64,000 nucleotides of DNA, taken from assembly GCF_900142875.1 (NCBI RefSeq), contig NZ_FRCK01000002.1:372001-436000 (forward strand). Reading direction: 5' to 3'. Positions 33,521-58,651 of this stretch are shown here, piece by piece (the stretch's first letter is position 1; each line of letters begins with the position of its first letter). The translations under genes and the position numbers were made by a program. The notes below the pieces were generated by a model that saw only the letters and a program-made list of their open reading frames with translations, was not told the origin of the DNA and did not search any database. This DNA comes from Paracoccus solventivorans (GTDB lineage: Bacteria > Pseudomonadota > Alphaproteobacteria > Rhodobacterales > Rhodobacteraceae).

Positions 33521-33662
33521 TATGTGCCAATATAGCCATTTGCAGCAAAGATGTAACCGTCTGGCGGTTTGCCCGGCTTGGCGGGACCTTTATGCTTGCG
33601 TGACGATTCGATCTGCAATCCTCGGAGGCGATTCACTGCACGAAAATACCGGAACCGGCCCG

Positions 33663-34112: not shown

Positions 34113-34114
34113 CC

Positions 34115-35128: not shown

Positions 35129-35223
35129 CCGGTTTCTTCAGGGTGATCGGCGGCTTCACCGTCGAGCATTGGCCGACGGCAATTCTCGGCGTGCCGATCC
35201 TGCCGATCGGCGTCTGGACGTAA
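35125..35223 (+). CDS. Possible small protein (32 aa)
   Basis: An ATGA overlap with the DUF3396 stop opens a 32-codon frame (MTGFFRVIGGFTVEHWPT, ending GVPILPIGVWT). It is hydrophobic with no recognised family. The overlap suggests translational coupling, but its length makes it uncertain. Confidence 0.35.
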   Translation: MTGFFRVIGGFTVEHWPTAILGVPILPIGVWT

Positions 35224-35251
35224 TACAAGACCTGAGGAAGACCCGATCCCA

Positions 35252-35626: not shown

Positions 35627-35672
35627 AGGATTTGCAACGTGGAAACGGCAATGCCCGCATCCGCGCCACGGA

Positions 35673-36119: not shown

Positions 36120-36318
36120 TTTGCGCAATATGGTCGGCCGGTTCGGCTAAGGGCGGGTCGCCTCGGAGAGCTTTCCTTGTTCGCGGAAATCCTAAAACCT
36201 CCACCAGATCGGCAGTCCCCAGAAAATCAGGCGGTTTCGTGTCGCAAGTTTTTGTCGCAGGTCGCGAACGACACGCGACACGATATGCGACAAGGGGGCG
36301 GTGGCTAACAGGACGGTT

Positions 36319-39306
36319 TTACAACCCGATGCCCCTTCCCCTGCCGAGGCCGTGACTGAGGGCGAGTTGCCGACCGAGCCTCATGCCTGAGTCGAAATCC
36401 ATGTCGATGCCGAGTTGCTTCTTGCGACCTTCGAGCAGGGATTCCATCTGGGGATCGCGCTCAAGGCTCATTGCCATGTTGCCCATCTCGGCGCGGGCGG
36501 CCTTGTAGCCGGAATAGTTGCCCGCCGCATATTGGCGGTCGCCGGTCTGCCTGAGGTCGCGAAAACGTTCCACGAAGCGGTCGGCGCGCAGATCGGGGTT
36601 CTGGCGCATTTCGGTTTCCAGTTGCAGGGCGCGTCTGGCGGGCAAGGCGCGGTCGGCATCACCTGAAGCGACATCGGCGGCGAATCCGGGATTCCGTTTA
36701 TAGACGGCCTCGGCGTCGCGGGAGCCATGAGGGCGCATATCGTCAAATCCGGCGCGGGCCTCATGCAGTTCCTGCACCTGCTCGGGCGTCGCCGAGATAC
36801 CCCGGTCCTGCGCCTTGAAGACCGCATCCACGGCACGGGCATGACGGACAAAGGCCCGGCCACGGGCGCGGCGCAACGCGGCCTCGGGGTCTTCCCCGAT
36901 CTGCCGCTCCACCACCGGCTTTCCGGTCCTTTCCCTTTCCGGTCGTCTCACACCATCAGCGCCAGGCGCGGCGTCACCGGGCTGGCGCAGACCGTCCAGC
37001 ATCCCATCGACAGCATCGCGCAGCCGCTCCGGCATCAGCCTGCGCATGATCTGGGCGACACGGGCGCGGAAGGTGATGCCGCGCCGTTCGGCATAGTCCT
37101 GGGCCGGGTCGATCTGTTCGTAATCCGTCGCCATGTCTTTGGCCCGGTCACGCGACAGGGTGTTGATGAGTTTATCCTGACTGGTGAAGTCGTCGCGGCC
37201 ATAGTGCAGGTCCATGCCGTCGCGGTGGCGCGACAGGGCGACATAGCTGCCATGGGCGTCCATGCCCGGTGTCGCCAGAACATGGGTGCGATCCACCGTC
37301 ATGCCCTGCGCCTTATGGATTGTCGCAGCGTAACCATGGTCGATGCGGTCGTAGTCTTTCAGATCAAAAGAGATGCCGCGTCCGTCATCGGTCTGCACGG
37401 TCATGCTCTCCGAGCTGACCTGTTCGATGGTGCCGAGCGTGCCGTTCTTGACGCCAAGGCCGCGCTCGTTTTGCAGAAACATGACGCGATCCCCGCTGGC
37501 AAAATTCCGGTCGCCGCGCTCGACGGTCACGCGCACATCCTCGCCCAGATCACCCGCCGTCCGCATACGGTCACGGGCCGCCTCGTTGAGTTCGCGCACC
37601 TCGGCGTTGGTGTGGGTGAGAATGATGCGGCTCGCGTCCGGCGATGCCTGCCGGTCGCGGCCCCAGCGGTCGATCAGATCGCCGCGCGCCTGCTCGCGGG
37701 TCTCGGCGGCATGCATCATGCCGTGACGGTCATAGGCGGCGATGGCATTGCCGGTCCTGCCGGTCGCCAGATCGCGAGTCGCGTCCCGCTGCCAGTCCTC
37801 GCGCTGGCGGCGCACCTCGCCGATTTCCGCACCGCCATGACGTTCATGGATCGAACGGAACGCGGCGCCCGCCTCAATGGATTGCAACTGCTGCGGATCG
37901 CCGACCAGCACCACCTTGGCACCGGCTTCCGCCGCATGGGAAAGCACGCGCTCCAATTGCCGCGTGCCGACCATGCCCGCCTCGTCGATGACCAGCACAT
38001 CGCGGGACGTCAGCATGTCGTGGCCCTGTCCCCAGCCATGTTCCATGCTGGCGATGGTGCGGGACGCAATGCCCGATCCGCCTTCAAGGTTTTCAGCCGC
38101 GATGCCTGACAGGGCAACACCGCAAACCTCAAAGCCTGCCGCCTCCCATGCCTCGCGGGCGACGCCGAGCATGGCGCTCTTTCCCGTCCCGGCATAGCCG
38201 ACGACGATGCCAAGATCGCGCCCGTCCGTGACATGCGCCAGCGCGTCGGCCTGCTCGCCGGAAAGAACAAGGCCGCGTTGTTCAGCGCGCGCCAATGCCA
38301 TGTCGCGATGCGTATCGTTCACCTCGTGACGTTCCTTCACGGCCATCATCTCGGCAGCACGGTGAAGGCGCTGTTCCGCCTCGATCATGTTGCGGGTGGT
38401 GAAGCGATCCTCGCCGCGCCCGTCCTGCCCGAGTTCGACCAGATCGGGCGAGCCGCGCATTGCGCCCATGACCTCGTTGAACTGCTCGATCCCGTCGCTG
38501 TGCCGGTGCGCGAACTTCGCCATGTCGCGCCGCGTGAAGGTCGATTGCTGCTGTGTGATCGCGTCCAGCGCTACCGATGGATCGGCGATGATCCGCGCGC
38601 CGTTGTTGCGGGCGATCTCACGGTGCATGTCGGCGCGGTCGGCGGCCTCAATGCCTTCGCCCTCGATGCGTTGCGCGGGTGCCCCGATCTGGCTTTGCGG
38701 CTCAAGCCCGATGCCCTGGGCCTCAAGGCTGCGATGGTCAATGCGGGCGTCAATGTCGAGTTCGGCAAGGCGCTCGTTGACATGTTCGGCCCAGCGTTCG
38801 CGCCAGCGCTCCACCATCTCCGTGCGGTTCCAGTCCCGCACTTTTGGGCCGAAACCGTTCTCGTCCACGCTGCGCATGGTCAGCATGACATGGGCATGAG
38901 GTTTGGGGCTTCCGTCCTCGGCCATGTCCCAATGCACGTTCACATCGGCGATCATGCCCTGATCGACAAATTCGGCTTGGGCGAAATCGCGGGCAAGTTC
39001 GATGCCTTGCGCCTGTGTCATCTCGCGCGGAATGGCGAACTCCACCTCGCGGGCGAGCTGGGCGTCCTTGCGTACCTCGAACGCCTCGACATCGTTCCAG
39101 AGCCGTTCGCGGTCGCCAAGATGCTCCGGTGCTCCTTCCGGCAACATGATCTCGGAATGGACGACGCCGCGCTTGTTGGAAAAGTCCTGCACGCGGTCGA
39201 TACGCTCGTCGCGCATCCGCGAGGCCGAGCGGTAGGCGGCGGACGCCACCGCGCTCGACCCGGCCTTGCGGCCAATGACCTTGACGTGAAGATGATAGAT
39301 CGCCAT
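36319..39306 (-). CDS. traA: MOBQ/Ti-type conjugative relaxase-helicase TraA
   Basis: Using the ATG at 39306 (MAIYHLHVKVIGRKAGSSAV) gives 995 aa. The N-terminal MobA/MobL relaxase domain has the catalytic Tyr in AAYRSASRM (residue 25) and the metal-binding HUH-like PKPHAHVMLTMR (about 134-145). A TraI/RecD-like helicase domain follows, with Walker A GYAGTGKSAMLG and VLVIDEAGMVGTRQ (Walker B). This two-domain layout is typical of Ti-plasmid TraA and alphaproteobacterial mobilisation elements. It nicks the oriT found 30-60 bp upstream of its start. It is divergent from traC/traD, as in Ti plasmids. Confidence 0.94.
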   Translation of the reverse strand: MAIYHLHVKVIGRKAGSSAVASAAYRSASRMRDERIDRVQDFSNKRGVVHSEIMLPEGAPEHLGDRERLWNDVEAFEVRKDAQLAREVEFAIPREMTQAQGIELARDFAQAEFVDQGMIADVNVHWDMAEDGSPKPHAHVMLTMRSVDENGFGPKVRDWNRTEMVERWRERWAEHVNERLAELDIDARIDHRSLEAQGIGLEPQSQIGAPAQRIEGEGIEAADRADMHREIARNNGARIIADPSVALDAITQQQSTFTRRDMAKFAHRHSDGIEQFNEVMGAMRGSPDLVELGQDGRGEDRFTTRNMIEAEQRLHRAAEMMAVKERHEVNDTHRDMALARAEQRGLVLSGEQADALAHVTDGRDLGIVVGYAGTGKSAMLGVAREAWEAAGFEVCGVALSGIAAENLEGGSGIASRTIASMEHGWGQGHDMLTSRDVLVIDEAGMVGTRQLERVLSHAAEAGAKVVLVGDPQQLQSIEAGAAFRSIHERHGGAEIGEVRRQREDWQRDATRDLATGRTGNAIAAYDRHGMMHAAETREQARGDLIDRWGRDRQASPDASRIILTHTNAEVRELNEAARDRMRTAGDLGEDVRVTVERGDRNFASGDRVMFLQNERGLGVKNGTLGTIEQVSSESMTVQTDDGRGISFDLKDYDRIDHGYAATIHKAQGMTVDRTHVLATPGMDAHGSYVALSRHRDGMDLHYGRDDFTSQDKLINTLSRDRAKDMATDYEQIDPAQDYAERRGITFRARVAQIMRRLMPERLRDAVDGMLDGLRQPGDAAPGADGVRRPERERTGKPVVERQIGEDPEAALRRARGRAFVRHARAVDAVFKAQDRGISATPEQVQELHEARAGFDDMRPHGSRDAEAVYKRNPGFAADVASGDADRALPARRALQLETEMRQNPDLRADRFVERFRDLRQTGDRQYAAGNYSGYKAARAEMGNMAMSLERDPQMESLLEGRKKQLGIDMDFDSGMRLGRQLALSHGLGRGRGIGL

Positions 39307-45220: not shown

Positions 45221-45543
45221 GAACTGGTCCTCAAGTACGGCAATTTATGGCCTCACGTCGCGTTTGAGGGTACCGGGGCAAACTATCTAGCGCAAGCACG
45301 CCTCGACGATTGTCTTTGGCAAGGTAGCGGAGTCTTTGCCTCTGGATGGCGATGGCAAGTTTCCGTCTGATGCGACGGTGGCGGGATTAGTTACAGTAAA
45401 ACTACCACAAGGAAATCCGACCCGACTTGATGCACGTCAATGACCGCATTGAGTGCGGCCTTGACAATAGATAGGCGAAATCGTTGCTATGCGATAGAAT
45501 CACAGGCAAAATGCGCAGGGAGACGCGCCGGAAGGAGTTTTCA
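45221..45543. other. Divergent intergenic region between exporter and arginine operon
   Basis: This 323-bp spacer has no gene and is noticeably richer in A+T than its flanks. It holds the FNR-type box at 45427-45440, a possible -10 element (GACAAT, 45463-45468) and an AAGGAG ribosome site just before the YfcC-like start at 45544. The promoter of the exporter operon must lie near its left end, but no clear box was seen. Confidence 0.6.
45427..45440 (+). promoter_or_regulatory. FNR/ANR-type box of the arginine deiminase operon
   Basis: The sequence TTGATGCACGTCAA matches the FNR consensus TTGAT-N4-ATCAA at 9 of 10 positions. Its centre (45433.5) lies about 41 bp before a start point that would go with the -10 candidate GACAAT at 45463-45468. 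This is the class II geometry for FNR activation. Pseudomonas arcDABC is controlled by ANR through the same kind of site. Confidence 0.65.
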
Positions 45544-46992
45544 ATGACCGAAGAAACGATGCAACGCGACGATCCGGCACAAGAGCTTTCGTCCCGTTTT
45601 CCGACTGCATACACGATCCTTTTTCTTCTCATCGTATTTGTCGCCGCTCTGACCTGGATCATTCCCGCTGGCCAATATGACCGCGTGATGAACGAGGAAG
45701 TCGGCCGCGAGGTAGCCGTGGTCGGAACCTACCGCGAGGTCGAGCGGAACCCACAGGGCTTCGTCCACGTGATGCTTGCGCCTGTTGCGGGCTTTTACGA
45801 TCCCGACAGCAACGCGGCGAACGCCATCGACGTCGCGCTTTTCGTGCTGTTCCTTGGCGGGTTTCTGGGCGTCGTGAACGCCACCGGAGCGATAGACACA
45901 GGGATCAGGACGGCGATGTCGGCAGTGAAGGGACGCGAGATCTGGATGATCCCGATCATGATGTCCCTCTTCGCGCTGGGCGGGACGACCTACGGCATGG
46001 CCGAGGAAACGCTGGCCTTTTATGCAATCCTCATCCCGGTAGTGATTGCGGCGGGCTATGACGCGGTGACGGGTGTGGCCATCATCCTGATCGGCGCAGG
46101 GATCGGCGTGCTGGGCTCGACCATCAACCCTTTTGCCACGGTCATCGCCTCCAATGCGGCCGGTGTCGCATTCACCGAAGGAATGACCCTCCGCCTGGTG
46201 ATCCTGCTGGGTGGACTGGTGATCTGCGCGGCCTATGTCATGCGCTATGCGCATCGAATCAAGGCCGATCCCTCACGCTCGGTCGTGGCCGGGCAGGCCG
46301 AATCGCATCGCAAAGTGTTCTTGCAGGGCAAGGCCGGCAAGGATGCAGATACTGCCTTGACCGGCACGCAGAAGCTCGTCCTTGTCATCTTCGCCATGAC
46401 CTTTGCGGTGATGATCTGGGGCGTTGCCGGCCAGGGCTGGTGGATGGCGCAAATGGGAGCATTGTTTCTCGGATCGGCCATCGTTATCGGGCTGGTGGCG
46501 CGGATGGGCGAAAAAAAACTTACCGGCAATTTCGTGGACGGTGCGCGTGACCTTCTCGGCGTGGCGCTTGTGATAGGTCTCGCCCGCGGCATCGTCGTCA
46601 TCATGGACCATGGGCGGATTGCCGACACTATTCTGCATGGCGCCGAGCAAACGCTGGGAGGGCTGGGCGAACTGGCCTTCATCAACCTGATGCTCTGGAT
46701 CGAGATCGGGATGAGTTTTTTCGTGCCGTCCTCGTCGGGGCTCGCCGTGCTGTCGATGCCGATTCTTGCGCCGCTTGCCGACTTTGCAGGTGTCGGCCGT
46801 GATCTAGTGGTGACAGCCTATCAGTCGGCAAACGGCTTGGTAAACCTCATCAACCCCACCTTCGCGGTGGTGATCGGCGGTCTCGCCATCGGCCGTGTGT
46901 CATACGACCGCTGGATCGTCTTCATCTGGCCGCTGATGCTGATCCTGTTGGCGTTCATCTCGGTGGTACTTACCCTTGGTGCGCTTCTGTAA
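45544..46992 (+). CDS. YfcC-family membrane carrier, probable arginine/ornithine exchanger
   Basis: This 482-aa protein has about 12 transmembrane helices of the YfcC/DcuC superfamily: start MTEETMQRDDPAQELSSRFP, the first helix with FLLIVFVAALTWIIPAGQYD, and motifs GGTTYGMAEETLAFYAI and GVLGSTINPFATVIASNAAG. It heads the arc operon, 15 bp before arcA, in the position where arcD sits elsewhere. So it probably swaps arginine for ornithine, although it is not of the classical ArcD (APC) family. The ATG at 45544 has an AAGGAG ribosome site. Confidence 0.85.
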   Translation: MTEETMQRDDPAQELSSRFPTAYTILFLLIVFVAALTWIIPAGQYDRVMNEEVGREVAVVGTYREVERNPQGFVHVMLAPVAGFYDPDSNAANAIDVALFVLFLGGFLGVVNATGAIDTGIRTAMSAVKGREIWMIPIMMSLFALGGTTYGMAEETLAFYAILIPVVIAAGYDAVTGVAIILIGAGIGVLGSTINPFATVIASNAAGVAFTEGMTLRLVILLGGLVICAAYVMRYAHRIKADPSRSVVAGQAESHRKVFLQGKAGKDADTALTGTQKLVLVIFAMTFAVMIWGVAGQGWWMAQMGALFLGSAIVIGLVARMGEKKLTGNFVDGARDLLGVALVIGLARGIVVIMDHGRIADTILHGAEQTLGGLGELAFINLMLWIEIGMSFFVPSSSGLAVLSMPILAPLADFAGVGRDLVVTAYQSANGLVNLINPTFAVVIGGLAIGRVSYDRWIVFIWPLMLILLAFISVVLTLGALL

Positions 46993-47007
46993 GAGAAAGG
47001 AAATGCC

Positions 47008-48237
47008 ATGTCTGATCGTACTCTCGGTGTTCACTCCGAAACCGGCAAGTTGCATCAGGTGATTGTGTGCCGCCCCGGCCTTGCCCATCGCCGTCTGACC
47101 CCGGACAATTGCCAGGAACTGCTGTTCGACGACGTCTTCTGGGTCAAGCAGGCTCAAAAGGATCACGACGTGTTCTCCTCTGTCATGCGCGAGGAAGGCA
47201 TCGAAGTGCTGGACGTGAACGACCTGCTGGCCGAAACGCTGGATGTGGCCGAAGGTCGCAAATATGTGCTGGATCACCGCATCAACCGCGATCAGGTCGG
47301 CGTCGGCATGCTGTCGGATCTCCGCGCCTGGATGGAGGAACTGCCCGGCGTTAGGCTGGCCGAATACCTGTTGGGCGGGCTGGCCACCAGCGACCTGCCG
47401 TTCAAGCCGCATGGCCTGTTCGGTGCTTATCTGGGCTATCAGGGCCTGATCCTGCCGCCGCTGCCCAACGCGCTGTTCACCCGCGACAACTCGGCCTGGA
47501 TCTACGGCGGCGTATCCGTCAACCCGATGCATTGGCCGGCGCGCCGTCCCGAGACGCTGCTGAACACCGCGATCTACAAGTTTCATCCGAAGTTTGCCGG
47601 CAAGGCGGAAATCTACTTCGGAGACCCAGCTGTCGATCATGGGCTGTCGACCGTCGAAGGCGGCGATGTGATGCCGGTCGGCAATGGCGCCGTGCTGGTG
47701 GGCATGGGCGAACGGTCCTCGCCGCAGGGCATCGGGCAATTGGCGGTTTCGCTGTTCGAAAAAGGAGCCGCCCATCGGGTTCTGGCTTTCGCCATCCCCA
47801 AGTCGCGCGCCGCGATGCATCTTGACACGATCTTCACCCTTTGCGGCGGCAACGTGGTGACGACTTTCAAGGAAGTGGCAGATGAACTGGTCTGTTACGA
47901 CATAGGCCCCGGCAAGGGCGGAGCGCCGGTGGAATTCCGCCACGATCCGCGTCCAATTTTCGAGATCGTGGCGGAGGTTCTGGGCTACAAGTCGCTGGAA
48001 CTGGTGCCGACCGGCGGCAACACCGAAGAGGAACGCAAGCGCGAGCAGTGGAATGACGGCAACAACGTGCTCTGCCTGCGTCCCGGCGTGGTCGTCGGCT
48101 ATGACCGCAACGATGACACCAATGCGGCGTTGAAGGCCGCCGGCATCGAGGTGCGCGCCATTCCCGGCGCCGAACTGGGCCGGGGCCGCGGCGGCAGCCA
48201 CTGCATGTCCTGTCCCACCATCCGCGACGCAGTTTGA
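47008..48237 (+). CDS. arcA: Arginine deiminase
   Basis: This 409-aa enzyme hydrolyses arginine to citrulline and ammonia. Catalytic features are all present: [19 protein letters not shown] (substrate Asp/Glu), [13 protein letters not shown] (catalytic His) and [13 protein letters not shown], whose Cys is the nucleophile. Length matches Pseudomonas ArcA (418 aa). It is the first enzyme of the arginine deiminase pathway encoded by this operon and gives ATP under low oxygen through ArcC. Confidence 0.97.
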
Positions 48238-48248
48238 GGAGGCGCACA

Positions 48249-49250
48249 ATGGCTTTCAACCTGAAGAACCGTCATTTCCTGACCCTGCGGGACTTCACCC
48301 CGCAGGAGATCGGCTATCTTCTCAAGCTCTCCGCCGATCTGAAGGCCGCGAAATACGCGGGCACCGAGGTTCCGACGCTCAGGGGCAAGGAGATCGCGCT
48401 GATCTTCGAGAAGGACAGCACCCGCACCCGCGTCGGCTTCGAGGTGGCGGCGCATGACCAGGGCGCGACCGTGACCTATCTTGGCCCCTCGGGCAATCAC
48501 ATGGGCCACAAGGAGACCGTCAAGGATACCGCCCGGGTGCTGGGCCGTGTCTATGACGCGATCGAGTACCGCGGCTTCGGGCAAGAGGTGGTGCAAACCC
48601 TGGCCGACTGGTCCGGCGTGCCGGTCTATAACGGGCTGACGGACGAATTCCACCCGACCCAGATCCTCGCCGATTTCCTGACGATGCAGGAACATGCCGA
48701 AAAGCCGTTGCGCGAGGTATCCTATTGCTTCCTCGGCGATGCCCGCAACAATATGGGTGACAGCCTGCTGATCGGCGGTGCCAAGATGGGCATGGATGTG
48801 CGGCTTTGCGCCCCTCGGACACTGTGGCCCACGACCGAAGTCCAGGACTATGCAAAGGCCGTCGCAAAAGACACCGGCGCGCGGATCACCCTGACCGATT
48901 CCATCGACGAGGGCGTGAAGGGCGTGGATTTCGTCTATACCGATGTCTGGCTTTCGATGGGCGAGGCCAAGGAGAAGTGGGCCGACCGCATCAAGCTGCT
49001 GATACCCTATCAGGTCAATGCCGATGTGATGAACAAGACCGGCAACCCGCGCGCCCGTTTCATGCATTGCCTGCCCGCCTTCCACAATACCGAGACGACG
49101 GTTGGCCAGCAGATCAAGGACGAGTACGGTCTGGACTGCATGGAAGTGACCGAGGAGGTCTTTGAAGGGCCGGCCTCGATCGTCTTCGATCAGGCCGAGA
49201 ACCGGCTGCACACGATCAAGGCGGTTCTGGTCGCCACCCTGGGGGGCTGA
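48249..49250 (+). CDS. arcB: Ornithine carbamoyltransferase, catabolic
   Basis: This 333-aa enzyme starts at ATG 48249 with a GAGGAGG ribosome site. Carbamoyl-phosphate binding is by [10 protein letters not shown], and [12 protein letters not shown] and [10 protein letters not shown] supply the remaining substrate ligands. In this operon it works in the phosphorolytic direction, converting citrulline plus phosphate to ornithine and carbamoyl phosphate. It overlaps no neighbour but is 11 bp after arcA and 2 bp before arcC. Confidence 0.95.
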
Positions 49251-49252
49251 AC

Positions 49253-50158
49253 ATGCTTGTCGTGGCAGCACTTGGCGGGAATGCGCTGCTCCGGCGCGGG
49301 GAGCCTCTGACGGCCGAGAACCAGCGGGCCAATGTGCGCCAGGCCGCGCGCGCACTGGCCTGCATCGTCGAGGCCGGGCACAGGCTGGTCATCACGCACG
49401 GCAACGGTCCGCAGGTCGGGTTGCTGGCGCTTCAGGGCGCGGCCTACAAGCCGGACGAGGCCTATCCGCTGGATGTGCTCGGGGCCGAAACCGGCGGCAT
49501 GATCGGCTACATGATCGAACAGGAACTGGAGAACGCACTGGGCCACACGCGGCCTGTCGCCACGCTCCTGACACAGGTGATTGTGGACGCTGACGATCCG
49601 GCCTTTCACAAACCCACGAAGTTCATCGGCCCGGTCTATGAACGCAAAGAAGCCGAGGCCCGCGCAAACGCGGCCGGTTGGACCATCGCGCAGGATGGGG
49701 ACAAGTGGCGCCGCGTCGTGCCCTCGCCCATGCCGAAGGAAATCCCCGACATTCGTGTGCTGCAGCTTCTCCTGGATCGGGATGTGATCATTATCTGCAC
49801 CGGCGGAGGCGGCATTCCGGTGCTGCGGCAGCGCGACGGCAGCATGAGCGGCATCGAGGCGGTGATCGACAAGGACGCCGCCAGCGCGCTTCTCGCGCGC
49901 CAGATCGGAGCCGATGCCCTTCTGCTGCTGACCGACGTGGACGCGGTCTATCGCGGTTTCGGCACCCCGACAGAGGCACCGATCGCCACATTGACACCAG
50001 ACGAGGCACGCGTACTCGATCTTCCCGCCGGGTCGATGGGACCGAAGATGACAGCTGCGGCAGACTTTGCGGATCAGGGTGGGCTGGCGGGTATCGGCCG
50101 GCTTGATCAGGCTGTGGAAATTCTGGAACGGCGCGCAGGCACGCGCGTCCAGAATTGA
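49253..50158 (+). CDS. arcC: Carbamate kinase
   Basis: This 301-aa enzyme makes ATP, ammonia and CO2 from carbamoyl phosphate and ADP, the energy-yielding step of the pathway. The amino-acid-kinase fold is evident from [32 protein letters not shown] and the C-terminal [13 protein letters not shown] motif. Length fits ArcC (about 310 aa). It is the last gene of the operon. Confidence 0.95.
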
Positions 50159-50466: not shown

Positions 50467-50880
50467 TCAAGGCCCTGAACTGTGCTCGGAGGCAGTCAGG
50501 ATCGCAGCGAAGAGATCCGACCGGTGCAGCATGCCGGCCACCTCGCCGTCGCGCAGCACGGGATAGACACGGTGCGAGCGCGCCAGGAACTCTTCGGCGG
50601 CGGAGACAAGGTCGAGATCGACAGTGAGCGCGCGTACCTCCCGGGTCATGAAGTCGGCAACCGCTCCGCCCCATTGCTGGTAGTAGCTGGCGTTCAACAT
50701 CGGGCGGAAGCAGTCCTTCTCCGTCAGGATACCGACCAGCCCTCCACGATCGTCGATGACCGGCGCCGAGGCCATGCGTTGCCTGGCGAAGGCCGCGACC
50801 GCTTCACGGATCGGCATCTCGGGAGACAGGCGCGGAAACTCCGCACGCATGATGTGCTCGACGGTGGTGCCCATGGTCAT
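50467..50880 (-). CDS. CBS-pair domain protein at the end of the NQR operon
   Basis: From the ATG at 50880 this is a 137-aa protein consisting essentially of two CBS repeats: IREAVAAFARQRMASAPVID with VGILTEKD, then ADFMTREVRALTVDLDLVSA with HRVYPVLRDGEVAG. Such pairs bind AMP, ATP or related nucleotides and report energy state. It overlaps nqrM by 4 bp (ATGA), so it is translated with the NQR assembly genes. It may regulate the complex or something else in the same region. Confidence 0.88.
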   Translation of the reverse strand: MTMGTTVEHIMRAEFPRLSPEMPIREAVAAFARQRMASAPVIDDRGGLVGILTEKDCFRPMLNASYYQQWGGAVADFMTREVRALTVDLDLVSAAEEFLARSHRVYPVLRDGEVAGMLHRSDLFAAILTASEHSSGP

Positions 50881-51044
50881 CGCCGGTTCTCCTCCTTCGC
50901 GTGCGGACAGCCGTCGCAGCGCGTTCCGCCGACACAGGCAAGGCCATCGCAACCCCGGCTCGGCGCCCCCCGGCCCATCATCAGGCCAGCGCCGAGGCCG
51001 ATGGCGGACAGGCAGACGATCAGAATTGCGAGAAGCGCTTCCAT
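50877..51044 (-). CDS. nqrM: Na+-NQR maturation protein NqrM
   Basis: This 55-aa protein is one N-terminal transmembrane helix (MEALLAILIVCLSAIGLGAG) followed by a short tail with four cysteines (GCDGLACVGGTRCDGCPH). That is the pattern of NqrM, which delivers iron to the NqrD/NqrE site. It lies right after apbE and ends in a 4-bp overlap with the CBS gene. NqrM is specific for NQR, so its presence separates this operon from Rnf. Confidence 0.85.
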   Translation of the reverse strand: MEALLAILIVCLSAIGLGAGLMMGRGAPSRGCDGLACVGGTRCDGCPHAKEENRR

Positions 51045-51053
51045 CGGCGGACC

Positions 51054-52037
51054 TCAGGCGAGATGCTTTTCGACCGCGCCGGTCGCAACGCTTCGCAGGC
51101 CGACACCGTCGCGGAACAGGAACAGCGCGGCGATATCTCGGTTGCGCGCCAGCTCCGGCCCGGCCTCGCCGGCCGCCATCAGCGCCGTCGCCCAGCCGTC
51201 GGCCTCGCGCGCTGAGGCCGTCAGCACGCTCACCGAGGCAAGCGCGCCTTCGACCGGCTCCCGCGTGGCGGGGTCGATGATGTGGCTGTAGCGGCGCGGG
51301 CCGATGTTGTAGCCGTTGGCGCGATCGCCCGACGTCGCGACCGCGAGGCTGTCCAGCCGCAGCATGCCGACGAAGCCTTCCGCTTCAGGTCGCGGGTCCT
51401 CGATGCCCACCTGCCAGACGCGTCCCGACGGATGCCGTCCACGAGCGGCTAGCTCGCCACCGAAGTCGATCAGGAAGTCGTCGTGGCCGGCATCCAGCAG
51501 CAGGCCGGCCATGCGGTCGAGCGCGTGGCCTTTCGCGATGCCGCACAGGTCGAGCGTGAGACCCGGTCTCGTCTTTGCGATGTGGTCGTTGGCCACGGAC
51601 AGGCCGCGCCAACCTCCGGGCATCGCCTCGCCATGGTCGATCGGCCCGAAACCCCAGCGCGCGACCAGCGGGCCGACCGTCGGGTCGAAGTGGCCGCTGC
51701 TGCTCTCGGCGATGATGAGAGCCGAATGCGCCACTTCCGCGACCTCGTCGGCAACGGCCATGTCTCCGGCGCCGGCGTCATTGAAACGGGAAATCACGCT
51801 GTCGGCCCGCCACGGTGAGAAGACGAGGTCCAGATCGGCGAGCAGCGCTTCGATGTGAGCCTGCAAGGCGGCGGTTGGCGTGCCTGCCGGCAGCGAAACG
51901 CTCCAGCCGGTACCGAACGCGGCTCCGCCGATGCCCGCCAGCGGCGAGACGCCGCGCGCGACGGCGGGAGCCGCGACACAGGCGGCGCCGAGGGCGAGGA
52001 AGCGACGCCGGTCGATGAGGGTGGACATGGGGCGCAT
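51054..52037 (-). CDS. apbE: FAD:protein FMN transferase ApbE
   Basis: This 327-aa protein starts at 52037 or 52028 and has a Tat-like signal (DRRRFLALGAACVAAPAVA). It is the Mg-dependent flavin transferase that attaches FMN to Thr of NqrB/NqrC. Motifs: FGTGWSVSL, the DPTVGPLVARWGFGP segment, DLCGIAKGHALDRM, and the C-terminal YSHIIDPATREPVEGALASV. It lies in the nqr operon, 4 bp after nqrF, as expected for a partner in flavinylation of NqrC. Confidence 0.93.
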   Translation of the reverse strand: MRPMSTLIDRRRFLALGAACVAAPAVARGVSPLAGIGGAAFGTGWSVSLPAGTPTAALQAHIEALLADLDLVFSPWRADSVISRFNDAGAGDMAVADEVAEVAHSALIIAESSSGHFDPTVGPLVARWGFGPIDHGEAMPGGWRGLSVANDHIAKTRPGLTLDLCGIAKGHALDRMAGLLLDAGHDDFLIDFGGELAARGRHPSGRVWQVGIEDPRPEAEGFVGMLRLDSLAVATSGDRANGYNIGPRRYSHIIDPATREPVEGALASVSVLTASAREADGWATALMAAGEAGPELARNRDIAALFLFRDGVGLRSVATGAVEKHLA

Positions 52038-52040: not shown

Positions 52041-53261
52041 TCAGCCTCCGAAATCGTCATTGTAGATGGAATGCGGCTCGACACCCAGCCGGTTCAACAT
52101 GGCGAGCACGGCCGAAATCATCACCGGCGGTCCGCAGAGATAGTATTCGCATTCCTCCGGCGCGGGATGGCCGGCCAGCACCTTGCGCACCGTGTCGTGG
52201 ATGAAGCCGGTTGCGCCGGTCCAGCGGTCGGACGGAGCGGGGTCGGAGAGGGCCGGAACCCAGGTGAAGTTCGGGTGCCTTGCTGCGATCTCCTCGAACT
52301 CATCGACATAGAAGAGGTCGGCTGCCGTGCGCGCGCCGTAGAAATAGGACATGCGCCGCGTCGTGCCGAGACCGATCTGCTCGTGGATCATGGCGCGCAG
52401 CGGCGCCATGCCGACGCCGCCGCCGATGAACACCATCTCGCGCTGCGTGGGCTGGACGTGGAACTCGCCGAACGGGCCTCCCGTCTCGACCGTATCGCCC
52501 GGCTTCAGCGAGAACAGCCAGGAGGAGACAACGCCGGGCGGGATGTTGTGCTCGCGACCGGCCGGCGGCACGGCGAGCCGGATGTTGAAGACGATGCGGC
52601 CGGCATCCAGCGGCCGGCTGGCGACGGAATAGGCGCGCGTCACGGGCTTCGGTGATGCCGACTTCAATGACGACCAGCCGGCGATGCGCCAAGCTTGGGC
52701 ATGCGCCGGGTCGATTTCCATCGTCGCGAAGTCGAGCGCGTAGGCGGGCGCTGTGAGCTGGGCGAAGCCGCCGGCGCGGAAACGGAAGTCTCGGCCGGCC
52801 GGCAGCTCCAGCACCAGCTCGCGGATAAGCGGCGCCAGCATGCGACTGGACAGGACCTTGCAGGGAAAGGAGTCCGCCGCCAGCACGTCGGCTGCGACGG
52901 TGACCTCGACCGGGCCGCGCAGCTTGGTCTGGCAGGCGAGGCGCACATGGTCGCGCCGCTCGGCAGGTGACAGCAGGCCCATCTCGGTCGCCTGCGGGTC
53001 GCCCAGACCCTCGCCCTCGACTGCGACGCGACAGAGACCGCAGGTGCCTGCGCCGCCGCAGGCGGCCGGAATGGCGATACCAGCGCCATGGAGGACGGCA
53101 AGCAACTGGTCGCCACGCGCCGCGTCGATTTGCTTGCCGCCGTTGACCGTGACGGCGACCGCGCCTGGCGGGATGAGCCGCCCGCGCGCAAGAATCAGCG
53201 CCGTCGTCAACGCAACGATCAGCAGGATGATGAACACAGTGCCCAACACGACCTCGGTCAT
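52041..53261 (-). CDS. nqrF: Na+-NQR subunit F (NADH-oxidising)
   Basis: From the ATG at 53261 (MTEVVLGTVFIILLIVALTT) this is 406 aa, the same size as V. cholerae NqrF. An N-terminal membrane helix is followed by a 2Fe-2S domain with Cys at 68, 74, 77 and 110 (ACGGAGTCGLC). Next come an FAD domain (RAYSVASRP) and an NADH domain (IGGGVGMAPLRAM, YYLCGPPVM). It passes electrons from NADH into the complex. Its start overlaps nqrE by 4 bp. Confidence 0.95.
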   Translation of the reverse strand: MTEVVLGTVFIILLIVALTTALILARGRLIPPGAVAVTVNGGKQIDAARGDQLLAVLHGAGIAIPAACGGAGTCGLCRVAVEGEGLGDPQATEMGLLSPAERRDHVRLACQTKLRGPVEVTVAADVLAADSFPCKVLSSRMLAPLIRELVLELPAGRDFRFRAGGFAQLTAPAYALDFATMEIDPAHAQAWRIAGWSSLKSASPKPVTRAYSVASRPLDAGRIVFNIRLAVPPAGREHNIPPGVVSSWLFSLKPGDTVETGGPFGEFHVQPTQREMVFIGGGVGMAPLRAMIHEQIGLGTTRRMSYFYGARTAADLFYVDEFEEIAARHPNFTWVPALSDPAPSDRWTGATGFIHDTVRKVLAGHPAPEECEYYLCGPPVMISAVLAMLNRLGVEPHSIYNDDFGG

Positions 53262-53869
53262 TGGGCTGCCATCTGTGCGAAAGAGGAGAAGCCGAGCGAC
53301 ATCATGCCGGTAATCAGGAAGGCGACGCCGAGGCCCCGCAGCCCTGCGGGCAGGTCGGCATAAGCAAGTCGAGCACGCACCGCGCCAAGCAGAATCACGG
53401 CCAGAGCGAAGCCTGCCCCGCTTCCGAGACCATAGACGACAGCCTCGGCGAGATCGTAACGCCGCTCGACCATGAACAGGCTGCCGCCGAGGATCGCACA
53501 GTGGATCGCAAGCAGCGGCAGGAATGCGCCGAACGCGGCCTGAACACGCGGTAGATAGCGCTCGAGCACCATTTCCAGCAGTTGCACGCTTGCCGCGACA
53601 ACGCCGATGAAGGTTAGCAGCGACAGATAGGACAGGTCCACCTCCGGCATACCGGCCCAGCCCCAAGCACCCGGCGCCAGCACCGCGTTGTAGATGAGCT
53701 GGTTGAGGGGAACCGTGACACCCATCACCACGATGACCGCGACGCCAAGGCCGAAAGCCGTGTCGGTGCGGCGCGACAGCGCCAGGAAGGTGCACAGGCC
53801 GAGGAAATAGGTGAGCGGCATGTTCTCGATGAACATCGCCCGCAGGAAGAGCGCGCCGAGATCGGCCAT
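53258..53869 (-). CDS. nqrE: Na+-NQR subunit E
   Basis: This 203-aa protein has six transmembrane helices. Cys26 (FLGLCTFLAL) and Cys124 (AIHCAILGG) match the pair that helps to hold the membrane Fe/2Fe-2S centre between NqrD and NqrE. It is coupled to nqrF by a 4-bp overlap. Confidence 0.95.
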   Translation of the reverse strand: MADLGALFLRAMFIENMPLTYFLGLCTFLALSRRTDTAFGLGVAVIVVMGVTVPLNQLIYNAVLAPGAWGWAGMPEVDLSYLSLLTFIGVVAASVQLLEMVLERYLPRVQAAFGAFLPLLAIHCAILGGSLFMVERRYDLAEAVVYGLGSGAGFALAVILLGAVRARLAYADLPAGLRGLGVAFLITGMMSLGFSSFAQMAAQ

Positions 53870-54531
53870 CAGCGTTCCTCCTCGATCTCATGCGGCGCGA
53901 AGTCGGGCTCATCCGCCTGCTCGGGCCAGATGCTGCGCATCGTCCAGACCAGCGCCCCGAGCAGAAAGAAGGCGCTGGGGGCGAGCAGCATCAGGCTGAG
54001 CGGCGTGAACCAGCCGCCCTGATCGGCTAGCGGCAGCACCTGATAGCCAAGAAGCTTGCCTGAGCCGAACAGTTCGCGGCAGGCCCCAACCAGCATCAAC
54101 ACAAGCCCATAGCCAAGCCCGCTGCCGAGTGCGTCGACCATGGACGGCAGCGGCGGGTTCGTGCGGGCGAAGGATTCGGTCCGTCCGAGAACGATGCAGT
54201 TGGTGGCGATCAGGCTGACGAATACCGACAGGCGCTGGCTGAGCCCGTAGAAGTAGGCCTGCAGGACCTGATCGATGACGATCACCAGCGAGGCAACGAT
54301 GATGATCTGCACGATGATGCGGATCGTGTTCGGGATGTGGCGGCGGATCGCGCTGATGATGCCGGCGGCGAGCACCACCACCACAGTCAGCGAGATCGAC
54401 ATGGTGAGCGCGGTGTCGAGCGAGGTGGTTACGGCAAGGGCCGAGCAGATGCCGAGGATTTGCAGCGTCACCGGGTTCTGACGGATCAGCGGCGTCGTCA
54501 GCGTGCCCCAAAGGCTCACGTTGCTCGCCAT
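53869..54531 (-). CDS. nqrD: Na+-NQR subunit D
   Basis: This 220-aa protein has six transmembrane helices. Cys29 (GICSALAVTTSLDTAL) and Cys112 (TNCIVLGRTESFA) occupy the same positions as in V. cholerae NqrD, which supports a working iron centre with NqrE. Start and stop are tightly packed: 3 bp after nqrC and 1 bp overlap with nqrE. Confidence 0.95.
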   Translation of the reverse strand: MASNVSLWGTLTTPLIRQNPVTLQILGICSALAVTTSLDTALTMSISLTVVVVLAAGIISAIRRHIPNTIRIIVQIIIVASLVIVIDQVLQAYFYGLSQRLSVFVSLIATNCIVLGRTESFARTNPPLPSMVDALGSGLGYGLVLMLVGACRELFGSGKLLGYQVLPLADQGGWFTPLSLMLLAPSAFFLLGALVWTMRSIWPEQADEPDFAPHEIEEER

Positions 54532-54534: not shown

Positions 54535-55335
54535 CTAGAACTCTCCGCGACGGATGGCGGTCATTAACGGGCCGTAGCCCTTCGGTCCGGTCCAGAAGCG
54601 CACCATCTGGGTGACGGCGTTACTGGTACGGGTGGCGCCGGTGATGCCGTCGACCTCATATTCGGTTCGGGCCTGTCCGCGCGCAACGGCGAAGCGCGGG
54701 ACACCGATCTCGTCAAAAAGACGCTTGCTGGCAAAGCTTTGCTGCCATTGCGCCTCCTCAATGCGCGCGCCGAGGCCCGGCGTCTCCGCCTGTTCTGTAA
54801 TTGCTATGCCTGCCAGCGTAGCCATGTCGCCGCGCAAGGCCAGCAGTGCCTGGATACGACCGCCATAGCCGGTGCCTGCCATCGGCAGGATGACCAGCGA
54901 GACGGCATCGCCCCTGCGCAGCAGATAGATCTGCGCATAGTTCGGCCGGCTGCCGATTCCGGCGAGATCGTCGCCGGCGGCGAGCGTCGTCCAGTTCGAG
55001 ACGTCGGCGAGCGCCGTGTCCAGGGTCTCAGGCGTGACGTCGGTCGCTGCGGCGCCGGCATCGAGGTTGACGACCACCGTGGACAAGGCGTCGCCGCCCG
55101 CCTCTTCGACCAGTTCCGACATGCCGGGCACGGCCGCAATCAACGCTTCGAGCCGGGCCTGCTGCTCGGCGGCGCGGTTCTGTGTCTGGATTGGCCTCAG
55201 TACAACTGTCGCGCCGGTGACGAGAACCGCGCAGATGGCGGACACCAGAAAGGCTACGACCAACGTCTTGGCGCGGCTGTCATTCGGGGTGGCAAGGAAG
55301 CGTCGCCACAGCGACAGCGGATTGAGGTCAGCCAA
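54535..55335 (-). CDS. nqrC: Na+-NQR subunit C (covalent FMN carrier)
   Basis: A TTG start at 55335 (MADLNPLSLWRRFLATPND) is preferred because GGAGGA lies 6-11 nt upstream of it, and it gives 266 aa, close to family size. A membrane anchor (residues 24-44) leads into a periplasmic domain. The FMN attachment motif is present near the end: DGITGATRTS, with Thr235 as the acceptor. It overlaps the end of nqrB by 8 bp. Confidence 0.92.
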   Translation of the reverse strand: MADLNPLSLWRRFLATPNDSRAKTLVVAFLVSAICAVLVTGATVVLRPIQTQNRAAEQQARLEALIAAVPGMSELVEEAGGDALSTVVVNLDAGAAATDVTPETLDTALADVSNWTTLAAGDDLAGIGSRPNYAQIYLLRRGDAVSLVILPMAGTGYGGRIQALLALRGDMATLAGIAITEQAETPGLGARIEEAQWQQSFASKRLFDEIGVPRFAVARGQARTEYEVDGITGATRTSNAVTQMVRFWTGPKGYGPLMTAIRRGEF

Positions 55336-56101
55336 GATGCTTCCTCCGCGCAAGCCATCGGCGCATGGCAATTTCATCGAGGAGCGGTGCAGCCAGAGAG
55401 GTCAGGAGTGCCGCCGAGATCGCAACCTGAACCGCAGCCGCTCCCTGCCAGCCTGAAGCGAACACCATCACGAGCGCGGCGTAGAGCAAGCCATTAAGCC
55501 AGCGACCCAGATCCGTCGCCGCGCTGGTCACCGGGTCGCAGACCAACAGGACGAGCACCACCGCTGCCGCTGTCAGGAACGGCATGGCGAGCATACCGCC
55601 ATACCATGCAATCACGAGCACTGCGGTCGCGCTCACCGCGATGCGCCACGCCATCACGCCTACAAGCATACCGATTGCCGCCATAGCAATCGCGGCCCAA
55701 CCCAACTGGATCGGCAGCACGGGCCACGGCGCAGCCGGAAAGCCAAAGCCGAGAAAGGCGATGGCGACGGTGGCCGGGTTGACCACGTTGCGCCCCCATC
55801 CGCCGAAAGCGAGTTCGCCCGCCACGACGCCGAAGCTGATGCCGATCAGCATCGGCAGCAGGCCGAGTTCGGCCGGTGCCAGAACCGCGACGGCGAACGC
55901 CGTCAGCGCGCCGGCGAAGGACGGAGGCTGCGCACGCGCAAGCATGAAGGCGAGGTGCCACAGGCCGGCGGCGATGAGCACGAAGACGAGACGCAGCGCG
56001 CCCTGCATACCCGTCGCGAGAAGCCAAGTCACCGCCAGGGGCATCGCTGCCGCCAGCAACAATAGCGCAACGGTCTCGCGATCCCAGATACCCCGTGTCA
56101 T
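55328..56101 (-). CDS. nqrB: Na+-NQR subunit B, short form lacking the FMN loop
   Basis: From the ATG at 56101 this is 257 aa, against 410-415 aa for standard NqrB. It retains the membrane core: GISFGVVAGELAFGGWGRNV, then VNPATVAIAFLGFGFP and CDPVTSAATDLGRWLNGLLY. It lacks the N-terminal extension of about 50 residues and also the loop after the NPA-AFL helix that normally holds SGAT, the site of covalent FMN attachment. In its place FGFPAAPWPVLPIQLGW runs straight into the next helix. No frame break is present, so the short form looks genuine. Confidence 0.88.
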   Translation of the reverse strand: MTRGIWDRETVALLLLAAAMPLAVTWLLATGMQGALRLVFVLIAAGLWHLAFMLARAQPPSFAGALTAFAVAVLAPAELGLLPMLIGISFGVVAGELAFGGWGRNVVNPATVAIAFLGFGFPAAPWPVLPIQLGWAAIAMAAIGMLVGVMAWRIAVSATAVLVIAWYGGMLAMPFLTAAAVVLVLLVCDPVTSAATDLGRWLNGLLYAALVMVFASGWQGAAAVQVAISAALLTSLAAPLLDEIAMRRWLARRKHLG

Positions 56102-57327
56102 GCGATCTCCTCGGCCGCGATACGGTCCAGCATGGCGCGCAGCATGGCGGTGAGGTGCGGCGCGGCCGCTGTGATGTAGTCGGCGAGCGCCACGTCCTCT
56201 TCGACCAGCGACAATGCACCAAGCCGCATGGCGGTCTCGGAATCGTTCGCCGCAAGCGCACGCACCAGCAGTGCGGCGGGCAGGATGCCGCCGAAGGCAT
56301 GGTCGAGCGCAGCGGTCGGGATGATCGGCAGCGGTCGGCTGGAGCGGCGGAGCGCAGCCGAAAACCAATGCGGCGACCGCTCCGTACCGGTCCCGGCGAT
56401 CGCTGCGACCTGCCTCCGCCACGGGCCGAGCCAGCGACCTTCCACCCCGTCCAGCGATGAACCCGACAGCAGGCGGTGCGGGCCGGGTTTCACGATGTCG
56501 AAGGTCAGCGCGCGCAGATCGGCGCCTGGCTGACAGCGCACCAGGCGATGTTCGCGCAGCGCCCCTCCCGACACTGAAACAAGTCTCGTCTCCGGCACAA
56601 GCCCGGTTTCGAGGAAGGAGCCAAGGCCGACGACGTCCTCGGCATGAACATCCCAGACCGGGCGGCCCGGCGCGGCGGGAAAGCGGGCGGCGATCTGCAG
56701 CCCGGCCAGACCATGAGGGTGGAACGGCCCGATCCTGGTCAGTCGGATGCGGTCGTTGCCGACGTCGAGGTCGTCCAGGTCGGCGGCGCCGTCATGGCAC
56801 ACGTACACGGGACCGTTGGTCAGGCTCGCCAACGCCTGACAACCTCGCAAGAAGGCGTCGAGACGGCCCGCCAGCGCCAACTGCGGCAGTGGCGCGTCCG
56901 GCCTCGTGTCGAGCGCCATGACGAAGATCGCTGCCGGCTGCTCGGCTGGCAGCGGCACGCGTCCGAAAGGGCGCGACCGGAAAAGCGGCCACATGCCAGC
57001 CGACAGCAGCAGCGCGCGCACGGCCACCGGGTCATTTTCGGCGCGTGCGGCGGACACATCGTGTTCGTGACGTCCGGCCTTTGCATCGTGGAAGAAGAGG
57101 ATGTGGGAGAGCCGCTTGCCCGGTCCGAGATCAGCCGCAGCAACCTCGCCCGCGACCGGCGCAACGAGAGTCAGATCGGGATGCCGGCGCGAGCGCAGCA
57201 CCGGAGCGCCTTGTGCAACCTTGTCACCAGCCGCAACAAGGATGTCGGCGCGGAAATCATCGCTGGGGCGGGCAAACAGCGCGCACTGGTCCGTGATGTG
57301 AACCCGGATGTCGGCGCTCGCAGGCAT
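56098..57327 (-). CDS. nqrA: Na+-NQR subunit A
   Basis: This 409-aa cytoplasmic subunit matches V. cholerae NqrA along its length: HPDLTLVAPVAGEVAAADLG near the start, LLSAGMWPLFRSRPFGRVP, SLTNGPVYVCHDG, PFHPHGLAGLQIAARFP and LGALSLVEEDVALADYI near the end. NqrA binds quinone at the cytoplasmic side. The ATG at 57327 is used; a GTG at 57345 in frame is possible. It is the first gene of the operon and ends in a 4-bp overlap with nqrB. Confidence 0.93.
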   Translation of the reverse strand: MPASADIRVHITDQCALFARPSDDFRADILVAAGDKVAQGAPVLRSRRHPDLTLVAPVAGEVAAADLGPGKRLSHILFFHDAKAGRHEHDVSAARAENDPVAVRALLLSAGMWPLFRSRPFGRVPLPAEQPAAIFVMALDTRPDAPLPQLALAGRLDAFLRGCQALASLTNGPVYVCHDGAADLDDLDVGNDRIRLTRIGPFHPHGLAGLQIAARFPAAPGRPVWDVHAEDVVGLGSFLETGLVPETRLVSVSGGALREHRLVRCQPGADLRALTFDIVKPGPHRLLSGSSLDGVEGRWLGPWRRQVAAIAGTGTERSPHWFSAALRRSSRPLPIIPTAALDHAFGGILPAALLVRALAANDSETAMRLGALSLVEEDVALADYITAAAPHLTAMLRAMLDRIAAEEIA

Positions 57328-57388
57328 GGCAAGAGCTTTCGGCACGGTCAGTCTGCCCGCCAGCGACTCCGGTATTTGACGCTGCTCT

Positions 57389-57402
57389 TTGATCTGGATC
57401 AG
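57389..57402 (+). promoter_or_regulatory. FNR-like box between nqrA and the penta-heme cytochrome
   Basis: TTGATCTGGATCAG fits the FNR consensus TTGAT-N4-ATCAA at 9 of 10 positions. Its centre lies about 41 bp from a plausible start point near 57437, with TCGAAT (57425-57430) as the -10. This would drive the cytochrome gene. A similar geometry on the nqr side is not evident, although shared control cannot be excluded. Confidence 0.5.
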
Positions 57403-57487: not shown

Positions 57488-58651
57488 ATGCGCCGAATCC
57501 TGATACCGCTCGTCGCTCTCTGCACGATCCTGCCGGCTGCCAGTGCGTATCTCAGCCACACCATGAGCAGCAACGCGCAGGAGGCCAACGGCGAAACTCC
57601 AATCTACGTCATGCCCAAATCGGGACCCTTTGCTCCCGAACAGGTAGCGATCCCGCAAAGTGAATACATCGCGGCGTGGGCGCGTTCGGGCCATTCGGAC
57701 GCGTCGTCGGTTTCCTTTTCCTACTGGAACGATGCAGGGTCCATCCCACCTGTTTGCTCTGTCTGCCATTCAGGCGTCGGCTTTCGATCGTTCCACGGCC
57801 TGGACGGCAGCACGCCTGGCCTGCCCGAGCATCCGGTGCCGGTAGGGGGTGTCGTCGACTGTGAGACCTGCCACAATCCCGGACTGGCGTCGATAAGCGC
57901 GATCTCGCTGCCGAGCGGCCTCAGCCACCCCGTCAATGCCGGAGAGGCATCTTGCATGACCTGTCACCAGAGTCGGGCGGCGGGCGCCATGGTCGAACGC
58001 GCGGTGAGCGGCAAGGCTGAAGACACCCCCGATCCCGCCCTCACATTCATCAATCCACATTATGCGACGGCTGCGGCGACGCTGCTCGGCGGCTATGGCG
58101 GGATGGGCTATCAATACGCTGGGAAAGACTATTCCGGCCGCTTCCTGCATGCACGCCCGGTCTCGACCTGCGCATCCTGCCACGACCCGCATAGTCTGAG
58201 CGTGGCGGAAGAGACCTGTCTGACCTGCCACGCCGACGGCAAGGCGGAAAACATCCGCATTTCGCGCAACAGCTTCGACGGCAGCGGCGACCTGAAAAAA
58301 GGCATACGCGCCGACATTGCAGCCAACGCGGCGCGGCTCATGGGAATGCTGGAGGACTATGCGACCAGGGTCGCCGGCGTGCCGATCCACTACGACGGCC
58401 ACCAGCATCCCTATTTCTTCACGGACGCCAATGGCGATGGTGTCGCCGACTTGGCGGACGGCAAGCCGGTTCCCTATAATGCGTGGACCCCGCGCTTGCT
58501 GAGGGCAGCCTACAACTGGAAGTTCATCGGTTCCGATGCTGGCATCCACGTCCACAACCCCCACTATGCGCTGGAGTTGCTTTACGATTCGATGGAGGAC
58601 TTGGCCGACCCGCTGGACATCGATTTTGCCGGGTTGAACCTGATGCGGTGA
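57488..58651 (+). CDS. Penta-heme periplasmic cytochrome c
   Basis: This 387-aa protein has a signal peptide (MRRILIPLVALCTILPAAS) and five CxxCH heme sites: CSVCH, CETCH, CMTCH, CASCH and CLTCH. The C-terminal part has a calcium-binding-like DANGDGVADLADG loop and several histidines that may be distal heme ligands. The fold is not that of a known nitrite or sulfite reductase that I can recognise. The gene is divergent from nqrA across an FNR-like box, suggesting anaerobic expression and a role as a periplasmic electron carrier or terminal reductase. Confidence 0.85.
   Translation: MRRILIPLVALCTILPAASAYLSHTMSSNAQEANGETPIYVMPKSGPFAPEQVAIPQSEYIAAWARSGHSDASSVSFSYWNDAGSIPPVCSVCHSGVGFRSFHGLDGSTPGLPEHPVPVGGVVDCETCHNPGLASISAISLPSGLSHPVNAGEASCMTCHQSRAAGAMVERAVSGKAEDTPDPALTFINPHYATAAATLLGGYGGMGYQYAGKDYSGRFLHARPVSTCASCHDPHSLSVAEETCLTCHADGKAENIRISRNSFDGSGDLKKGIRADIAANAARLMGMLEDYATRVAGVPIHYDGHQHPYFFTDANGDGVADLADGKPVPYNAWTPRLLRAAYNWKFIGSDAGIHVHNPHYALELLYDSMEDLADPLDIDFAGLNLMR

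Follow-up and report, generated by a model that had tools for sequence, protein, structure and literature searches.

In the Na+-NQR of Vibrio cholerae, helices AH-I and AH-II of the NqrB N-terminus close on ubiquinone, which F159 also touches, and reduced FMN-NqrB has been proposed to trigger Na+ passage through NqrB (PMC10643135, in the parts of that paper available here). An engineered V. cholerae structure carrying NqrB-T236Y also exists (9ud3, according to the accessible portion of its record). Two-subunit Nqr/Rnf-like complexes are proposed, in the available sections of two papers (PMC8238504, PMC11334425), to send NAD(P)H electrons outward. The literature searched, outside which most subscription journals lie, yielded no short or FMN-less NqrB and no NQR with a multiheme cytochrome; the term nqr is absent from the accessible text of the Thioclava electrotropha paper (PMC9226611), and that of the Gallionellaceae paper (PMC10734462) covers RNF only.

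The window analyzed here is a stretch of 64,000 nucleotides from Paracoccus solventivorans (contig NZ_FRCK01000002.1, positions 372,001 to 436,000). It holds all six genes nqrABCDEF together, as do relatives, in the minus-strand operon order nqrA-nqrB-nqrC-nqrD-nqrE-nqrF-apbE-(nqrM-like)-CBS, with a gene for a multiheme cytochrome (MHC) divergent from the operon. The features, in window positions, are as follows.

56098-57345, minus strand: nqrA, diverged (196.1 bits to TIGR01936, cut-off 321.05); an alternative start at 57327 is possible
55328-56101, minus strand: short nqrB, 257 aa, a membrane core that lacks both the FMN loop and the N-terminal quinone arm
54535-55335, minus strand: nqrC, with the FMN-attachment motif DGITGAT; start TTG at 55335 or farther upstream
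53869-54531, minus strand: nqrD, both cluster Cys retained
53258-53869, minus strand: nqrE, both cluster Cys retained
52041-53261, minus strand: nqrF, with 2Fe-2S, FAD and NADH domains (409.5 bits to TIGR01941, cut-off 295)
51054-52037, minus strand: apbE, FAD:protein FMN transferase family
50877-51044, minus strand: nqrM-like (tentative), a 55-aa Cys-rich protein
50467-50880, minus strand: two-CBS-domain protein, the last gene of the operon, with a match in 74 of the 80 loci
57488-58651, plus strand: divergent pentaheme cytochrome (MHC), with five CXXCH and, by eye, a signal-like N-terminus
57389-57402, plus strand: FNR-like palindrome between nqrA and MHC, one mismatch to TTGATN4ATCAA

NqrC, NqrD, NqrE and NqrF pass their NCBIfam cut-offs (TIGR01938-TIGR01941); NqrA misses its own, as given above, and NqrB reaches 57.1 of 349.9 bits against TIGR01937 (nqrB), in two stretches. 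The family match of apbE and the five CXXCH counted in the cytochrome agree with the initial annotation, which had placed an apbE in the operon and a penta-heme cytochrome divergent from it. Its nqrM call is plausible only: the 55-aa protein is Cys-rich, and a relative at the same place in genome G034 matches PF04400 below the cut-off (19.4 of 22 bits), but the window protein matches nothing in Pfam or NCBIfam. A gene cluster at 45511-50158, ending in arcC (carbamate kinase), directly adjoins the nqr operon and, from its other genes, presumably encodes an arginine deiminase pathway. At 28144-39306 lie what we take to be a serine-recombinase-like protein and a 995-aa MobA/MobL-like protein, suggesting an integrated mobile element.

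The nqrB gene (55328-56101, minus strand) translates into 257 aa with no internal stop. A 4-base overlap of its start (ATG) with the end of nqrA supports the short N-terminus; from the GTG at 56422, a longer reading frame would extend deep into nqrA. The protein matches PF03116 in two stretches (E 2.3e-16, 60.5 bits, cut-off 27.7), and no second PF03116 protein was found in the window's genome at E up to 0.001. An AlphaFold model predicts an all-helical core (pLDDT 92) that superposes on residues 48-412 of V. cholerae NqrB with Z 25.8 and an rmsd of 2.4 A over 251 residues. The initial annotation had described an NqrB without frameshift that lacks both the SGAT loop and the N-terminal extension, and both losses are confirmed: the model aligns only from residue 48 onward, and a motif search of the window NqrB found no [ST]GA[ST], and hence no SGAT-like Thr in the retained sequence.

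The loss of the loop is shared by relatives. The search for further short NqrBs that had been suggested brought the collection to 94 proteins, including that of the window (81 in a main clade and 13 divergent), and the FMN Thr is absent in all 94. The loop is 13-20 residues long in these proteins versus 56-61 in 12 canonical NqrBs, and it is exactly 13 residues long in 81/81 main-clade proteins. A Trp within the shortened loop of the window NqrB, W126, is invariant in a 60-sequence main-clade alignment and might face the NqrC flavin. Matches to a flavinylation motif in loci L018, L068, L096 and L170 fall at unrelated places and were dismissed as chance; another, in L169, falls close to the end of a 321-aa frame that is probably a fusion with NqrC.

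These counts bear on the trivial explanation, namely that the operon is degenerate or that a sequencing artefact hides the loop. Broken copies do occur, in G773 (L169), in G815 (L185) and on the Paracoccus aminophilus plasmid pAMI8. As a general account, however, the explanation is already refuted by the loop and FMN Thr counts, and it is very improbable: 94 short proteins come from many genera, and the cofactor ligands are conserved. Orthologues with 57-65% identity are present in 10 other genomes of the genus and, together with the constant 13-residue loop, show that the short NqrB is due neither to chance nor to a frameshift. On pAMI8 (L177, 7706-14076), a recombinase and a Tn3 transposase occupy the expected place of nqrDEF after a short-type nqrABC, and cydB and a truncated haemoglobin lie upstream.

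A contig scan returned 152 relatives, and the 80 loci cited throughout are the best 80 of these by NqrB similarity, a set biased to the main clade in which some loci come from the same genome (as L053 and L089 do) or from the same species. We take these loci to be alphaproteobacterial, mostly Rhodobacteraceae and Rhizobiales, with Granulosicoccus the one exception. In a family sample of 248 genomes taken as Rhodobacteraceae, 68 have an NqrB match; 30 of these score at least 110 bits and are short NqrBs, and the remainder score at most 67 bits and nearly always lie in frames of at least 400 residues. Both kinds occur together in G896 and G921. Among the matches listed for a phylum sample of 398 genomes, the five strongest are short NqrBs, all in the window's family, and the others sit in frames of at least 320 residues. 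A short NqrB is also present in G176, from another family of the same class; in the orders of G176 and G419, matches occur in 1/4 and 2/15 genomes, respectively, counting G176 and G419 themselves. Additionally, the short-NqrB system is found in at least four plasmid records, and none of 12 pattern matches among viral contigs is a relative. Environmental strains with the system include Shinella sp. HZN7 and Paracoccus seriniphilus.

A joint tree of NqrD and NqrE (41 taxa, rooted on two RNF) places 26 short systems in one clade with UFBoot 92, or 96 without G176. These are 20 of the 80 main loci, the window and five of the 13 divergent members, with G1042 outside; L169, which is broken, and L175, which has no separate NqrD, were excluded. 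Support is 100 for the main clade, 97 for the short systems plus G419, 97 for the canonical systems and 94 for all NQR. The sister of the short clade, G419, keeps SGAT and lacks the quinone arm. It (L162) and G1042 (L195) share the order nqrABCDEF-apbE-CBS, a loop of 56 residues bearing SGAT, and the missing arm; at the positions of G141, F159 and T162 they have W/G, L/Y and M/V in one or the other. From these two loci, the quinone arm was probably lost before the FMN loop. The CBS gene was considered as a mark of the clade and is not diagnostic, as 7 of 12 canonical loci also have a distant CBS gene nearby (26-29% identity), though in a different arrangement; the arrangement alone is therefore special. 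In L170 (G176:C102) the order is nqrBCDEF-apbE-CBS, with no nqrA in the stretch seen and with the riboflavin ligands also changed.

The half of the enzyme that receives electrons is conserved. The NqrC FMN motif is found in 83 of 85 proteins, the two misses (L066 and L080) being contig-end fragments in which nqrC is cut off after about 330 and 470 bases. The cluster Cys of NqrD and NqrE are kept in 82-83 of 83 and the Fe-S Cys of NqrF in 83/83. Each cofactor assignment that had been made for these subunits from the window alone, that is, the FMN threonine of NqrC, the iron cysteines of NqrD and NqrE, and the 2Fe-2S, FAD and NADH motifs of NqrF, finds support in the window and, for the NqrC motif and the cluster and Fe-S cysteines, in relatives as well.

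The quinone end of NqrB has changed. Residues are numbered as in V. cholerae NqrB by alignment, and the roles of the scored residues other than G140 and D397 follow the accessible portions of PMC9325719 and PMC10643135; two conserved glycines are mentioned in the available text of PMC4014512. The quinone arm is visible in all 12 canonical N-termini (two motif tests caught 6 and 7 of the 12) and absent in the window NqrB, L162 and L195; its absence in the other short NqrBs was read from alignments rather than scored singly. F159 is kept in 0/94 short NqrBs and G140 in 1/94, and D397 is kept in 94/94; for G140 and D397 the roles are assumed. G141 is kept in 63/81 main-clade and 0/13 divergent proteins. 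In the window NqrB the residues at G140, G141 and F159 are A, G and G, respectively, so that G141 alone is retained. The riboflavin ligands are better preserved in the main clade: N200 in 81/81 (6/13 divergent), N203 in 73/81 (4/13), T162 in 67/81 (6/13) and D346 in 77/81 plus three Glu (12/13). All four are retained in the window, and main-clade NqrB probably still binds riboflavin, as far as its ligands tell. The aromatic gate of the Na+ path, F338/F342, is Phe in 0/81 main-clade proteins at both positions and in 9/13 and 11/13 divergent ones, which leaves pumping by the main clade uncertain.

One interpretation of these residues is a simplified NADH:quinone reductase in which the NqrC FMN swings into the vacated place and reduces the NqrB riboflavin directly, with a modified quinone site and the MHC as an accessory. 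The retained riboflavin ligands and G141 mean that main-clade NqrB may still reduce quinone, the invariant D397 and the intact NqrB fold are in keeping with this, and there is a precedent: in two-subunit Nqr/Rnf-like complexes without the Thr, the partner flavin was modelled near an apparent non-covalent flavin site (PMC11334425, in the part available). However, the quinone arm is gone, F159 is lost throughout and G140 in 93/94, fewer than half of the divergent members keep N200 or N203 and none keeps G141, the G176 locus is without nqrA, and the tight linkage to the MHC would be left unexplained. This interpretation, the main rival of the one favored below, is considered doubtful.

The linkage in question is close. 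The MHC is matched in 77/80 loci, and in two of the three misses (L038, L076) the contig starts too near nqrB; in the third (L018), presumably a transposase-like gene lies directly upstream of nqrB. Among 101 relatives, an orthologue is present in all 11 genomes with main-type NqrB, and the one further match (G053) is a 40% paralogue only. In the family sample, strong MHC matches occur in 26/30 short-NqrB genomes versus 13/218 others (Fisher p 1.5e-21, relatedness uncorrected), with weak matches in G814 (41 bits) and G957 (19 bits) left uncounted. Of the 26, 24 adjoin nqrB, that of G815 is adjacent but broken, and that of G955 lies on another contig. The MHC thus belongs to the short-NqrB system. 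As a counterpoint to a cytochrome outlet, MHC relatives also stand alone: the 13 matches outside short-NqrB genomes have scores of 336-374 bits, similar to that of a paralogue without nqr genes in the window's genome. A second pentaheme cytochrome (G000:C14:301610-302680, L098; also L099, L100 and L101) is about 40% identical to the window MHC and has no nqr genes around it. On a Defluviimonas plasmid (L178, 9935-19033), a 43% homologue has genes for PepSY, cytochrome b, DUF2271 and FMN transferase in its vicinity, a neighborhood that is another flavin-linked electron route.

Five CXXCH motifs are present in 81/82 MHCs, the exception (L169) being broken, and five further His are invariant in 78/78 (L016, L019, L080 and L169 left out); a sixth is invariant in a 48-sequence main-clade alignment. 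This pattern is more in keeping with bis-His hemes that carry electrons than with a catalytic role. The predicted structure of the MHC is poor (pLDDT 71.5), a fold search gave no match at E up to 0.001, and the best sequence match among solved structures has E 0.025.

In a few loci, the place of the MHC is taken by something else. No MHC match was found in the genomes G034, G837, G905, G1035, G176 and G419, and G814 has a weak one only. Four loci without the MHC carry another redox gene and two show none. Divergent from nqrA in G814 are a tetraheme cytochrome (PF14537, E 7e-12), whose best match among solved structures is flavocytochrome c3 (E 4e-7), and FAD_binding_2 pieces of a frame-broken flavoprotein; in G905 there is a CISCH-bearing EB_dh protein (PF09459, E 1e-56); and in G034 and Shinella sp. 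PSBB067 a nitroreductase-family gene follows CBS, with a TAT match in G034 and none in PSBB067. The PSBB067 record is absent from the five plasmid records with an MHC. Partner replacement rests on these four loci, and completeness is 88% for the genome G034 and 91% for G905. In G837 and G176, which have a short NqrB and no MHC in the genome, no partner was seen nearby; the partner position in G837 is held by what we take to be a SelO-like gene. In G1035, also without an MHC, the contig ends inside nqrB.

An NqrB that has lost both its quinone arm and its FMN, together with a redox gene that is tightly linked yet replaceable, best fits electrons leaving at NqrC. The favored reading, with a probability of roughly 0.5, is an NQR-derived complex with an unchanged input half and a re-plumbed output, in which electrons leave the NqrC FMN for a periplasmic acceptor. 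NADH would reduce NqrF (FAD, 2Fe-2S), and the 2Fe-2S cluster of NqrD/E would carry the electrons across the membrane to the covalent FMN of NqrC, which would pass them to a dedicated periplasmic acceptor. In the window and most relatives this would be the MHC, and in some side branches other redox proteins. The route through an NqrB FMN to quinone would not be the main one, and NqrB would be retained as a membrane docking or ion-pathway subunit. A periplasmic multiheme cytochrome probably takes the electrons; we infer their direction, the contact of NqrC with the MHC (a divergent gene position is no proof of contact), any ion pumping and the acceptor beyond the MHC. The initial annotation had offered riboflavin and the divergent cytochrome as alternative destinations, or else a simplified NQR whose coupling mechanism has changed. 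Co-occurrence, conserved gene order and partner replacement favor the cytochrome, and the ligands retained in the main clade keep riboflavin in play; the periplasmic and the riboflavin/quinone routes may coexist.

A broader reading, put forward tentatively and at somewhat less than even odds, is a distinct branch of the NQR/RNF superfamily, an NADH:periplasmic-acceptor oxidoreductase, possibly still pumping ions, whose quinone outlet would have been dismantled and in which, after loss of the NqrB FMN, the NqrC FMN would be a plug-in port for interchangeable partners: the pentaheme cytochrome, the tetraheme cytochrome with its fumarate-reductase-like flavoprotein, the EB_dh cytochrome and the nitroreductase.

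The sequence between nqrA and the MHC also bears on the direction of flow. TTGATN4ATCAA-like sites with at most two mismatches occur in this gap in 27/77 loci versus 14/178 other intergenic regions (p 3e-7), and those with at most one mismatch in 8/77 versus 2/178 (p 0.001), with relatedness uncorrected in both comparisons. The window has two FNR-like sites with one mismatch, against 0.66 expected, and 13 of 100 shuffles gave two or more; the second (45427-45440) precedes the cluster ending in arcC. Anaerobic induction of the system is suggested. A link to denitrification was considered and dropped, nosZ (PF18764) being present in 10/30 short-NqrB genomes versus 58/218 others (p 0.51, no enrichment).

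Reverse operation, in which periplasmic donors reduce the MHC, electrons enter at NqrC and NAD+ is reduced at NqrF at the expense of the ion gradient, would find a parallel in the related RNF, known to run backwards on an ion gradient (PMC12174285, in its accessible text). A cation/proton antiporter gene adjoins the MHC in 14/80 loci, on the same strand in 13, and would suit such a role; PF00999 is matched by both genes scanned, one of the 14 and the L187 gene, and antiporter-like genes are visible by eye within L167, L185, L194 and L162. Reverse operation is nonetheless improbable, as the FNR-like sites and the fumarate-reductase-like and nitroreductase-family partners suggest, if indirectly, that a periplasmic acceptor is reduced.

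Compared with known systems, the complex resembles RNF in that the window NqrB superposes on RnfD (Z 24.6), and five plasmid annotations name the short NqrB subunit D of the RnfABCDGE type. Unlike RNF, it has the NADH-oxidizing NqrF instead of RnfB, and its NqrD and NqrE group with NQR and not with the two RNF; neither RnfB nor RnfC is among the matches listed, and the operon proteins match the NqrF and NqrA models best. The Methanosarcina RNF with MmcA is likewise a redox pump with a multiheme c-type cytochrome as outlet, but that system is an RNF, archaeal and ferredoxin-oxidizing (PMC11024163, PMC12174285, in the portions available). Two-subunit Nqr/Rnf-like complexes share an NqrB/RnfD-like domain without the flavinylated Thr (PMC8238504, PMC11334425, likewise in part). 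Unlike those complexes as they appear there, the present one has all six NQR subunits with the NqrD/E cluster and no fused NAD domain, the window NqrB matching PF03116 only.

The closest relative is Na+-NQR of the V. cholerae type, with which the system shares the six subunits in order, the cofactor ligands of NqrF, NqrD, NqrE and NqrC, ApbE and the NqrB fold. It differs from Na+-NQR in an NqrB without the FMN loop and the N-terminal quinone arm, in changed quinone-site residues, and in a cytochrome gene divergent from nqrA. Judged by its genes, it is an NQR by descent and in five subunits, yet it lacks two defining features of NqrB. A natural clade that has lost the NqrB FMN but retained the steps before it offers a test of which redox step drives pumping and, if the favored reading is true, the complex would carry electrons from NADH to the periplasm without necessarily using the quinone pool.
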